DNA of 64,000 nt from Algoriphagus aquimarinus (GTDB lineage: Bacteria > Bacteroidota > Bacteroidia > Cytophagales > Cyclobacteriaceae). This document shows, in pieces, positions 35,980 through 41,960 of the stretch. How positions within the stretch are numbered: position 1 is the first letter of the stretch; each line of letters starts with the position of its first letter. Under the pieces are notes generated by a model. The model saw only the letters and a list, made by a program, of their open reading frames with translations. It was not told the DNA's origin and did not search any database. The DNA lies in contig NZ_VORW01000010.1 of assembly GCF_007997215.1 (NCBI RefSeq), positions 1-64,000 of the forward strand. Direction: 5' to 3'. Position numbers and translations under genes: made by a program.

Positions 35980-36324
35980 TTATAAAAAACCCAACTCAAG
36001 CTTTGCCGCTTCGGACATCATATCCTGAGAATAGGGGGGGTCAAAGGTTAACTCAACCTCAACATTGTTAATACCTTGAATCTGCTGGATCTTATCCTTT
36101 ACTTCGGAAGGGATAAACTCTGCGGAAGGGCAATTTGGAGAAGTCAAAGTCATTAAGATATACACGTTGTTTACAGGATAAACCGTGATTTCGTAAATCA
36201 ATCCCAAATCATGAACATCCACAGGGATTTCAGGATCATAGACCAGTTTGATGGCCTGAACCACCTTTTCTTTAAGGCCTTCGATTTGTGTTGAAGTGGT
36301 TTCTGTGTTGTTCTCTGTTGACAT
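35980..36324 (-). CDS. MIP18/DUF59 Fe-S assembly factor (SufT-like)
   Basis: A 114-residue cytosolic protein of the DUF59/MIP18 family. VYDPEIPVDVHDLGLIYEI is the core signature and TLTSPNCPSAEFIP holds the conserved Cys. Relatives (SufT, PaaD, CIA2) help mature Fe-S proteins. It lies inside the suf operon between sufE (4-bp gap) and the bacilliredoxin gene, so a Fe-S role is well supported by context. Confidence 0.92.
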   Translation of the reverse strand: MSTENNTETTSTQIEGLKEKVVQAIKLVYDPEIPVDVHDLGLIYEITVYPVNNVYILMTLTSPNCPSAEFIPSEVKDKIQQIQGINNVEVELTFDPPYSQDMMSEAAKLELGFL

Positions 36325-39279: not shown

Positions 39280-40044
39280 TCAGACTGTAGCTTTAGAATC
39301 GACTTCTTCTTTGATCCAGTCGTATCCTTTTTCTTCAAGCTCCATTGCTAGTTCTTTGGTGCCTGATTTTACGATTCTTCCGTTGTACAATACGTGCACA
39401 AAATCCGGAACAATATAATCCAACAATCTCTGGTAGTGAGTCACTACGATTGTAGCGTTTTTATCTGATTTCAATTGATTTACTCCATTGGAAACGATAC
39501 GAAGTGCATCGATATCAAGTCCTGAATCCGTCTCATCCAAAATGGATAGGGTAGGGTCAAGCATTGCCATCTGGAATATTTCATTTCTTTTCTTTTCTCC
39601 TCCGGAAAAGCCTTCGTTCAAAGATCTGCTCAGAAGCTTCTGATCAATCTCGACAAGCTTCATCTTTTCCTTCATCAAAGTCAAGAACTTCACAGCATCC
39701 AATGGCTCTAGACCACGGTATTCTCTTACTTGGTTAACTGCCGTTCTTAGGAAGTTAGTAGAGCTTACACCTGGGATTTCTACCGGATATTGGAAAGCAA
39801 GGAATACACCTTCTCTTGCTCTAACTTCTGGAGAAAGTTCAAGCAGGTCTATTCCCTTGAAAATAACTTCACCTTCAGTCACTTCATATTCTTCTCTTCC
39901 TGCTAATACTGAAGCAAGAGTAGATTTACCTGAACCGTTTGGCCCCATGATCGCATGAACTTCTCCTGCTTTCACTTCAAGGTTGATGCCTCTTAGGATT
40001 GGAGTCCCTTCGATAGAGGCGTGCAAATTCTTTATACTAAGCAT
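39280..40044 (-). CDS. sufC: SufC ATPase
   Basis: A 254-residue ABC-type ATPase. Walker A GPNGSGKST near residue 34, the Q-loop in LAFQYPVEIPG, signature FSGGEKKRNEIFQ and Walker B LSILDETDSGLD are all intact. It drives SufBC2D conformational change. Its start is separated from sufB by a 470-bp insert containing an unrelated four-helix-bundle gene. Confidence 0.97.
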   Translation of the reverse strand: MLSIKNLHASIEGTPILRGINLEVKAGEVHAIMGPNGSGKSTLASVLAGREEYEVTEGEVIFKGIDLLELSPEVRAREGVFLAFQYPVEIPGVSSTNFLRTAVNQVREYRGLEPLDAVKFLTLMKEKMKLVEIDQKLLSRSLNEGFSGGEKKRNEIFQMAMLDPTLSILDETDSGLDIDALRIVSNGVNQLKSDKNATIVVTHYQRLLDYIVPDFVHVLYNGRIVKSGTKELAMELEEKGYDWIKEEVDSKATV

Positions 40045-40050
40045 AATGCT

Positions 40051-40518
40051 AAATTTGAAATTTGAAATTTGAAATTGAGGAAACCTGGTTTTTAGCTTTT
40101 AAACTTATTTCCCCTAATCTCACTTTCTTTTAAATACTTTATAAATCCAGAAATAGACTTGCTGATTTCTAGGCTTTTTTCAGAAGCTACACTGAGTGTT
40201 TCTTCTGAAATATAGTGTCGATCAAAAGCTCTGTATAACTGAGATCTTGACTCACCGGCTGATGCTTTGGCTATACTTAAGAATTGGATGAATTCTCTAT
40301 TCCCTTCTCGCTCAAAGCCTTCAGCTATATTGTCCATAATAGAGCCTGAAGATGAGTTAATTTGATTTTTAAGACTGAAATCATTTTGGAAACCATTTAT
40401 TTGAGTCAATGCAAAAACCATTTTGCAATATTCTCTCGCCTTTTGCCAGATGTCTAAATCTTCGAATCGGGTGATGGTTGCCATAATCTCAAATCAGAAA
40501 TCTCTAATTTCAAATTAA
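40051..40518 (-). mobile_element. Single-gene insert with heptad-repeat inverted arms inside the suf operon
   Basis: The left arm (40051-40080) is three exact AAATTTG units plus AAATTGAG. The right arm (40485-40518), read on the other strand, is four degenerate versions of the same heptad (AATTTGA, AATTAGA, GATTTCT, GATTTGA). The arms thus form about 30-bp inverted repeats around a four-helix-bundle gene. The right arm runs into the sufB stop codon and the left arm begins 6 bp before the sufC start. It looks like a compact insertion that leaves both neighbours intact. Mobility is inferred. Confidence 0.5.
40092..40484 (-). CDS. Four-helix-bundle protein (23S rRNA intervening-sequence family)
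   Basis: A 130-residue protein of the S23/IVP family. [20 protein letters not shown] is the hallmark start, followed by [20 protein letters not shown] with GFERE and then [20 protein letters not shown]. Family members are encoded in 23S rRNA intervening sequences or stand alone in Bacteroidetes; they are structurally related to Avd of diversity-generating retroelements. Function is unknown. It has no evident link with Fe-S assembly despite lying between sufB and sufC in the same direction. Confidence 0.93.
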
Positions 40519-41960
40519 CCTACAGATCCCTCAAGTGTCAAAGCCAACAACTTCTGTGCTTCCACAGCAAATTCCATTGGCAATTGATTCAATACCTCTT
40601 TCGCATATCCATTTACAATCAAAGCCACCGCATCTTCTGTAGCGATACCTCTTTGGTTGCAATAGAAAAGCTGATCCTCACCGATTTTCGAAGTAGTAGC
40701 TTCATGCTCCACTTTTGCGGTTGAATTGTGGATATCGATATAAGGGAAGGTATGAGCTCCGCAGCGATCACCCATCAATAGGGAGTCACACTGAGAGAAG
40801 TTACGTGCATTAGTAGCGCGCTTCATCACTTGTACTTGACCTCTGTAAGAGTTCTGAGATTTTCCTGCAGAAATACCCTTGGATACGATTCTTGACTTGG
40901 TGTTTTTACCAATGTGAATCATTTTCGTTCCAGTATCTGCTTGCTGATAGTTATTAGTTACCGCTACTGAGTAGAATTCTCCGATGGAATTGTCTCCTTT
41001 TAGGATACAAGACGGATACTTCCAAGTAACTGCAGAACCTGTTTCTACCTGAGTCCAAGAGATCTTGGAGAAATCACCAGCACAAATACCACGCTTAGTT
41101 ACGAAGTTGTAAATACCACCTACTCCTTCTTTGGATCCTGGGAACCAGTTCTGAACAGTTGAGTATTTTACCTCAGCATGCGCTCCAGCGTAGATTTCCA
41201 CTACTGCTGCGTGCAATTGATTTTCATCACGTTGCGGTGCAGTACAGCCTTCCAAGTAAGACACGTATGACTCGTCCTCAGCTACAATCAGGGTTCTTTC
41301 GAACTGACCAGTGTTTGCTGCATTGATTCGGAAATAAGTAGAAAGCTCCATTGGGCAACGAACGCCTTTGGGGATATAGCAGAAAGATCCGTCGGAAAAT
41401 ACAGCAGCATTAAGTGCCGCATAGTAGTTATCCGTCATTGGAACCACAGAACCCAAATACTTCTTCACCAATTCAGGATGCTCTTTAACAGCTTCGCTAA
41501 ATGAACAGAACACAATTCCAAGTTTGGAAAGTGTGCCTTTGAAGGTAGTGGCTACTGAAACTGAGTCCAATACCGCATCTACTGCGATTCCTTGAAGTCT
41601 CTTTTGCTCATTAAGATTAATACCCAAGCGCTTGTATATATCAAGCAATTCGGGATCGACCTCATCTAGGTTTTTAGGCTTGCTGGCAAGCTTTGGTGCT
41701 GAATAATATTTTAGAGACTGCAAGTCAATTTTCGGATAATGGACATTAGCCCATTTTGGCTCTGACATGGCTTGCCATGTTTTGAAAGCTTTAAGCCTCC
41801 AATCGAGAAGCCACTGAGGCTCTTCCTTCTTGGCAGATATCCAACGTATAGTTTCTTCAGTTAATCCTACTGGAGCTTCATCGGCTTCGTAGTTCACTGA
41901 CCATCCGTGTTCGTATTCTTTTGACGTTAGTTCTTCTAAAATCTGATTGTCTTTGCTCAT
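40515..41960 (-). CDS. sufB: SufB Fe-S scaffold subunit
   Basis: A 481-residue core scaffold on which clusters form. Conserved blocks are [20 protein letters not shown] near the C-terminus, KWKYP-like [20 protein letters not shown] and [18 protein letters not shown]. Length is usual. First gene of the operon; the 231 bp upstream to 42191 should carry its promoter. It is separated from sufC by the four-helix-bundle insert. Confidence 0.97.

Follow-up and report, generated by a model that had tools for sequence, protein, structure and literature searches.

The 23S rRNA IVS of Coxiella burnetii holds an S23-family open reading frame (ORF) between complementary arms that form a 28-bp stem. It has been called a selfish element, and excision by RNase III is reported for 23S rRNA IVSs (excerpts of PMC4990558). 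The same excerpts mention no 7-bp period, no variable repeat units and no dispersed copies. The unit described here was found in a 64-kb stretch of Algoriphagus aquimarinus DNA (the window), and it too has an S23 ORF inside complementary arms that are able to pair. The host of the IVS is an rRNA gene, that of the window unit a protein operon, where it sits between sufB and sufC; no Rfam hit was found between positions 36000 and 44000 of the window.

Intergenic tandem arrays of 7-bp units are likewise known as heptameric SSRs, with the units GGGAATC in Xanthomonas, GGGGA(C/T)T in Nostoc and TAACTGA in Beggiatoaceae. Unlike the S23 arms, these published arrays are treated as quadruplex-forming or regulatory (PMC4692102 and PMC4679880, both in excerpt). 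Two Xanthomonas species have 70 and 75 inverted, convergent pairs of GGGAATC arrays; these arrays are described as generally not associated with mobile elements, and the excess of heptamers in bacteria is explained by hypotheses only (PMC4692102, in excerpt). The terms ‘S23’ and ‘four helix’ are absent from the main texts of both papers. Since the TAACTGA sets are nearly all direct repeats (PMC4679880, in excerpt) and the Nostoc repeats are seldom paired (PMC4692102, in excerpt), only part of the heptamer class may belong with S23 units. The window arms are themselves intergenic tandem arrays of a 7-bp unit, as in the heptameric SSRs.

REPIN/RAYT systems and MITEs have short inverted ends and include ORF-less relatives of a gene-bearing unit. 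The S23 unit shares both traits, but its ends are set by a period and not by a shared sequence. The arrangement of REPIN/RAYT was not found at the window locus, as the Y1_Tnp matches of the A. aquimarinus genome lie on contigs C8 and C22 and the gene of the unit belongs to PF05635. To our knowledge, no class of mobile element with ends defined by a period has been described. The Avd protein of diversity-generating retroelements (DGRs) shares the four-helix-bundle fold with S23, and homology between the two has been noted (excerpts of PMC10053308). Avd of DGRs adjoins a reverse transcriptase, whereas the window S23 gene (contig C1) and the only RVT_1 match of its own genome (C55) are on different contigs. 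Among the papers listed in searches of the open-licence literature, to which subscription papers and bioRxiv do not belong, none linked S23 genes to heptad arrays.

With a probability of about 0.75, the window unit is a copy of a very widespread mini-mobile element that lacks a transposase and consists of an S23 gene bounded by inverted arrays of period 7 or 8. The features of the locus are as follows.

39280..40044, minus strand: sufC, the downstream host gene (ABC_tran)
40051..40076, no strand assigned: sufC-side arm, AAATTTG in 3.7 copies on the plus strand (TRF score 52; lag-7 score 19)
40051..40516, minus strand: the whole S23 heptad-arm unit, arms and gene, which fills the sufB–sufC spacer
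40092..40484, minus strand: S23/IVP four-helix-bundle gene of 130 aa (PF05635, TIGR02436)
40485..40516, no strand assigned: sufB-side arm of degenerate heptads (lag-7 score 11)
40515..41960, minus strand: sufB, the upstream host gene (PF01458)

The minus-strand order is sufB, S23/IVP gene, sufC. An earlier note, written from the letters of the sequence, had described an S23/IVP gene that splits sufB from sufC, and profile matches and coordinates confirm this. The sufC-side arm (40051-40076) consists of perfect AAATTTG copies, which read as the reverse complement on the gene strand, where they form the downstream arm. The sufB-side arm (40485-40516) abuts the S23 start codon and is the upstream arm on that strand. 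The two arms are inverted relative to each other over 18-19 nt at 89% complementarity; together with the TRF and lag scores, this bears out the note's description of inverted 7-base arms, one near-perfect and the other degenerate. Both of its boundary observations are also right, in that the sufC ATG (40042-40044) lies 6 bp from the sufC-side arm and the sufB stop codon (40515-40517) overlaps the sufB-side arm. TRF returned four period-7 rows in the window, of which the sufC-side arm scores highest (52 vs. 30 for the others). The same arm is the sole non-coding period-7 array with a lag score of at least 12 in the 64 kb. In a predicted RNA fold the arms pair around the gene (z -3.2), which is weak evidence as a single sequence was folded.

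The S23 protein of the window scores 107.1 bits against PF05635 (cut-off 33.8) and 102.9 bits against TIGR02436 (cut-off 24). Both its profile scores, above the curated cut-offs, and its four-helix-bundle fold place it in the S23/IVP family. Its AF2 model (pLDDT 94.9) matches the S23 structures 2gsc (TM 0.78-0.82 by query length) and 2rld (TM 0.72-0.75 by query length), each of which contains five chains. Xcc0516 is said to be assembled of five four-helix bundles. The match to Avd 4dwl is weaker (TM 0.73/0.88, E 0.09), and the Avd structures 4dwl, 8ub7 and 8ube give TM 0.67-0.73 by query length; the earlier note had mentioned a structural kinship to Avd. Profile searches found no catalytic domain in the S23 protein. 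PF05635 is matched eight times in the A. aquimarinus genome, each time on a different contig, and one of the matches contains five stop codons. A reverse transcriptase or a Y1 transposase as obligatory partner of S23 is unsupported: RVT_1 (PF00078) is unmatched in the S23-bearing genomes G004, G022, G023 and G032, where assembly gaps or reverse transcriptases outside the model are possible, Y1_Tnp (PF01797) is unmatched in the S23-bearing G014, and the S23-free G018 matches both profiles. PF05635 is unmatched in G018, a congener with a completeness rating of 100%, and is matched up to 13 times in other members of the genus. The first 400 kb of G018 contain one non-coding period-7 array with a score of at least 12 and no period-8 array.

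Repeat arrays were scored at 188 S23 loci by how well the DNA up to 220 bp from the gene matches itself at each lag; 97 of these loci came from the same order, 80 from across phyla including archaea, and 11 from plasmids. A period-7/8 array was found within 220 bp of the gene at 165 of the 188 loci and on both sides at 109. By group, arrays were present at 82/97 same-order loci (both sides 57), 72/80 cross-phylum loci (both sides 43) and 11/11 plasmid loci (both sides 9). At 720-940 bp from S23 loci, the corresponding figure was 22/168 (10/89 same order, 9/68 cross-phylum, 3/11 plasmid). ParE toxin genes of relatives had arrays at 4/30 loci and on both sides at none of the 30, and shuffled flanks gave 15/970, 21/800 and 3/110 for the three groups. 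The signal is specific in period: scores of at least 10 occurred at lag 7 in 74/97 same-order loci and at lag 8 in 16, with 0-4 at each of the other lags from 4 to 12, and at lag 7 in 59/80 cross-phylum loci and at lag 8 in 16, with 0-6 at the others. Period-7 arrays scoring at least 12 are scarce elsewhere (2 in 54 kb of sampled non-coding DNA of the A. aquimarinus genome).

These counts describe the loci examined and are not a census, since the samples are similarity-ranked and partly orthologous. The same-order loci are 97 of 184 matches, picked by search rank and genome, some of them orthologous, and the suf-site copy itself is present in at least four genomes of this sample (G000, G015, G017, G021). 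The cross-phylum loci are the best 80 of at least 577 confirmed, by similarity to one query; by record title they include Planctomycetota, Clostridia, Acidobacteria, Proteobacteria and Methanophagales archaea. The plasmid loci are from 11 of 39 records and include two near-copies (L289 and L290), and the ParE loci are 30 of 44 matches. Within the loci examined, sequence comparison establishes both the arm–gene–arm architecture and its breadth.

The earlier note had proposed to look for AAATTTG arms at other S23 genes. Arms were found, but AAATTTG as a fixed signature of the element is ruled out, as other S23 genes bear different 7- or 8-bp units. By eye, the S23 flanks of the A. aquimarinus genome alone show AGACATA, CCGATGT, AAATTTG, GATTAGT, AATAACC, TTTACGA and other units. 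Two of its eight S23 loci score low at lag 7, namely L004, with period 8, and L007 (G000:C15), the pseudogene with five stops, where one flank still shows traces of a CAGTGGG-like array of period 7 (lag score 8). Arms of period 8, of the ATTGAAAA, AATCTCCC and TTTTCACA types, occur at L004, L081, L100, L106, L124, L067, L211 and L282, and the S23 flanks of L245 have a period of 9.

Both arms are clear in 54 loci: 48 of these have inverted arms and 4 direct ones, and in 2 the orientation is undecided. G outnumbers C in the upstream arm of 45/54 loci, and C outnumbers G in the downstream arm of 42/54. Arms lie close to the ORF and most commonly have 4-5 units, with a long tail of longer ones. 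The order of variant units is not mirrored between the arms beyond chance (mean z -0.13 over 33 loci and -0.35 over 19 loci), and most stems are thus not kept intact base for base. Mirrored order as proof of a selected stem was therefore not found, although the rRNA copy L297 looks mirrored by eye.

The S23 pairs compared were those whose surroundings show no relation in DNA or protein. Among them, the 12 pairs with the highest protein similarity (14 loci in non-homologous contexts) share 0.327 of their arm 5-mers, a value reached in 1/2000 permutations though from few pairs, against 0.087 for pairs with protein similarity below 0.3, 0.089 at 0.3-0.5 and 0.127 at 0.5-0.6. Over all pairs the correlation between protein and arm is weak (r 0.06; 49/2000 permutations as high). 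Because sharing is high only among the closest proteins, the repeat unit seems to travel with its S23 protein for a while and then to drift.

The S23 gene mostly lies downstream of, and co-directional with, its upstream neighbour. In same-order tandem spacers it is sense in 68 cases and antisense in 4, and a further 11 copies sit between convergent genes and 0 between divergent ones (14/97 set aside); the cross-phylum and plasmid loci give sense 53, antisense 6, convergent 12 and divergent 3 (17/91 set aside). The copy at an nrd site (L288) is antisense to its neighbours. As ParE genes share the sense bias (14 vs. 3), the orientation of S23 genes is read as dependence on read-through and not as a unique mark.

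Filled and empty versions of the same site were compared at several places. Of 20 loci scanned with Rfam, one, L297 of Azospirillum lipoferum 4B, has its S23 gene within a 23S rRNA gene, and its arms GAGGACGGATGACAGAGGACGGAGGACAGA and TCCGTCCTCTGTCTTCTGTCATCCGTCTTC both have period 7. In a second 23S copy of this strain, a 19-bp hairpin stands where L297 holds a 473-bp insert, and the flanks are identical between the two copies over the 433 and 354 bp compared; the 19 bp are replaced by the insert without target duplication. The S23 frame at L297 (1434-1906) is absent from the gene table of the record, which also lists no RNA genes. L297 shares heptad arms with the S23 units outside rRNA, and 23S rRNA IVSs are best read as a special case of S23 heptad-arm elements.

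A site next to a TraM gene is filled in L292 and L351 and empty in L344 and L345 (93-95% identity); L352 lacks the gene there but has a clear array (CTGTTCCCTATTCCC...) on one side, opposite a degenerate stretch. Of the plasmids listed for this site, the alignment covers two that are empty and one that is ORF-less, with L346 and L353 left out. An integrase site is filled in L289 and L290 and empty in L347-L349 (about 90% identity), and the nrdB–nrdA spacer is filled in L288 and empty in L350 (85% identity). Read by eye from the alignments, roughly 10-45 bp are replaced at these three plasmid protein-gene sites, and no target duplication is evident at them. The target-site duplication typical of insertion sequences is thus not evident at the compared sites. 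The empty rRNA, TraM, integrase and nrd sites contain no array, the highest lag-7/8 score being 6. At several sites, then, comparison shows arms and gene as one block, either wholly there or wholly missing, with a short stretch at its position in the empty site, a pattern that suggests mobility of the units.

Plasmid copies from Nostoc and Geminocystis, in unrelated surroundings, are 71% alike over 474 bp, from arm to arm and not beyond. Two other comparisons were set aside: L071 and L120 share a downstream gene and do not give a clean element boundary, and at cas6–cas4 the pair L294/L343 (98.8% identity) fails as a clean filled–empty comparison, because the plasmid without S23 carries a different insert there. 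The cas6–cas4 spacers of two cyanobacterial plasmids (L291, L294) hold S23 units, and in L294 cas1d (type I-D) adjoins.

At the suf site itself, a sufC match at 89-96% identity was found in each of the other 58 genomes of the genus (in G045 as a fragment only, in G023 in two pieces). The sufB–sufC junction could be read in 50 of the 59 genomes and is filled in 9 and empty in 41. The earlier note had looked to relatives for empty junctions, which are the majority here, and it had held that a gene present in all relatives, with other S23 genes armless, would mark an old operon member; with 9/50 junctions filled and arrays at 165/188 loci, neither is the case. In a tree of 750 bp of sufB, seven of the filled genomes group together, with the empty G053 and G054 within the group, and the two remaining filled genomes lie elsewhere. 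At the fewest, five gains or losses are needed on this tree, at least three of them forced by well-supported branches; three of the changes may be one gain and two losses. Two genomes carry an altered suf-site gene: in G050 a TGA interrupts the frame, and in G019 the ATG is changed. The pattern at this site mainly reflects inheritance within a clade, with losses and possible transfer, and is no proof of recent movement. The proposal of a mobile unit is supported by patchy presence, filled and empty sites and ORF-less copies, within the limits that the window copy itself is mainly clade-inherited and that movement is deduced from comparison.

Among the 41 empty suf spacers, 14 have a lag-7/8 score of at least 9 and no S23 gene, and 9 score at least 10, so arrays can exist there alone. 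The nine are L162, L163, L175, L180-L183, L196 and L198, often with ATTGAAAA-like octads. Such spacers may hold solo arrays, remains of elements or earlier targets.

ORF-less relatives were traced through the Xanthomonas-type repeat. The pattern (GGGAATC)3, with at most one mismatch, was found in one (G445) of 369 genomes drawn from the class of a gammaproteobacterial locus. The only PF05635 match of G445 spans positions 1-64 of the 106 in the profile and appears to be frameshifted beyond them; as read from translation, it lies between accB and accC, with inverted GGGAATC-type arms. G445 also has six ORF-less convergent pairs, most of them from places chosen for holding arrays; a seventh, L403, was discarded because it is the S23 element itself, and the listing has 19 further unpaired rows, some of which are arms of the same pairs or chance matches. 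Pair L373 matches the inner ends of the S23 element on either side (8 nt, exact, and 9 nt), and L393 (13 nt), L379 (7/8 nt) and L410 (6/8 nt) match them on one side; L391 and L394 show little such likeness. Divergent pairs numbered 0 in sixteen 20-kb windows of G445, a weak control because only one of the six convergent pairs lies in those windows. For GGGAATCGTTCAAGC, at most two mismatches allowed, the excess over the reversed control was no more than twofold (14 vs. 7); the weight lies with the inner-end matches in G445. Comparison shows some ORF-less relatives of the element, L352 among them, and the few cases in G445 fit deletion derivatives of S23 elements.

The element as we picture it would measure about 0.45-0.5 kb, with a unit of 7 bp or, less often, 8 bp that differs between elements and is similar in both arms of one element. 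It would have no promoter of its own and would depend for its expression on read-through out of the host operon. The arms would pair in the RNA and loop out the S23 frame, as in 23S rRNA IVSs, and RNase III would cut the arm stem outside rRNA as it does there, by which insertion into operons could be tolerated. The S23 protein may recognise its own arm array with roughly one protomer per repeat, in an assembly that would be five-membered as in solved relatives, and may help to install new copies via host replication or repair, possibly at hairpins. A reverse transcriptase would not be needed for such spread. The earlier note had offered a protein-binding array or an mRNA element as another view of the arms; either may be part of how the element works.

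It is unlikely that the arrays came first, by slippage or by their own spread in spacers, and that S23 genes insert into them as a target. Solo arrays do exist, as shown by the AAATTTG pattern in the A. aquimarinus genome (34 hits vs. 1 in the control), by the 14 of 41 empty suf spacers scoring at least 9 at lag 7/8 (9 of these at least 10) and by the ORF-less pairs of G445. A target array, however, predicts arms in the same direction, and 48/54 are inverted; the empty rRNA, TraM, integrase and nrd sites are free of arrays (top score 6), strong period-7 arrays are rare in sampled non-coding DNA away from S23, and some ORF-less pairs have inner ends common with the S23 element. Distinctly unlikely, too, is an immobile, ordinary operon gene whose arms are an autoregulatory array, bound beside its own start codon by an oligomeric RNA-binding protein. 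The closeness of the arms to the ORF, their usual 4-5 units, the tracking of unit and protein similarity among close pairs and the five-membered assemblies of the fold (2gsc and 2rld) would all suit such binding, but patchy presence, filled and empty sites, ORF-less copies and a copy inside a 23S rRNA gene are foreign to it. Autoregulatory binding may occur alongside mobility and not instead of it.

Retro-mobilisation, with a reverse transcriptase acting in trans, S23 acting like Avd and heptads arising from iterative template copying, draws on the likeness to Avd (4dwl, TM 0.73/0.88, E 0.09) and on the RNA-like sense orientation of the genes; it is very unlikely given that the four S23-bearing genomes named above (G004, G022, G023, G032) have no RVT_1 match and the S23-free G018 has one. 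An ordinary old operon member with arms that are a chance AT-rich repeat is barely credible. Seven of the nine filled suf genomes do fall in one clade, but the array statistics (165/188 loci against the controls), the 41/50 empty junctions and the altered genes of G050 and G019 run counter to it.

Beyond the transposase-less mini-element itself, a wider and more tentative reading, to which we give slightly less than even odds, would make S23/IVP genes the coding members of a pan-prokaryotic transposase-less class. Its ends would be read by their 7-8 nt period by a ring of protomers, one repeat each, and copies would be installed by replacing short hairpins or spacers while the host replicates or repairs its DNA; rRNA IVSs, together with some of the heptameric arrays and inverted pairs that still lack an explanation, would be copies and remains of it. 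If so, one phenomenon would embrace the S23 insertions by which 23S rRNA is fragmented, the many dispersed ‘four helix bundle’ genes and some of the heptameric-repeat excess, and bacteria and archaea would share a class of mobile element without known transposase and with ends set by rhythm and not by sequence. In our judgement, based on the open-licence literature, period-ended elements would be a new kind or, with the rRNA IVS taken as the parent kind, a far-reaching variant of the IVS. S23 units sit within core operons, suf here and accB–accC, nrd and cas6–cas4 elsewhere. With filled and empty sites at hand in the same strain, the old question of rRNA IVS movement is directly testable.

The AAATTTG pattern, whose 34 hits in the A. 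aquimarinus genome include some that overlap, was also followed through the genus. Away from S23 genes, its arrays in this genome are largely short palindromes (15 loci, by eye). Over the genomes with a read junction (9 of the 59 without one being left out), suf-filled genomes have a median of 29 arrays and empty ones 4 (p 0.012, kinship ignored). As a marker of suf-filled genomes this abundance is weak, given that kinship is ignored and that the hits number only 2-3 in three of the filled genomes. The reversed control gave at least 12 hits in the congeners G009, G010, G015, G047, G050, G057, G063 and G065, so similar A/T heptad arrays with the letters in another order seem to be common in these eight as well.
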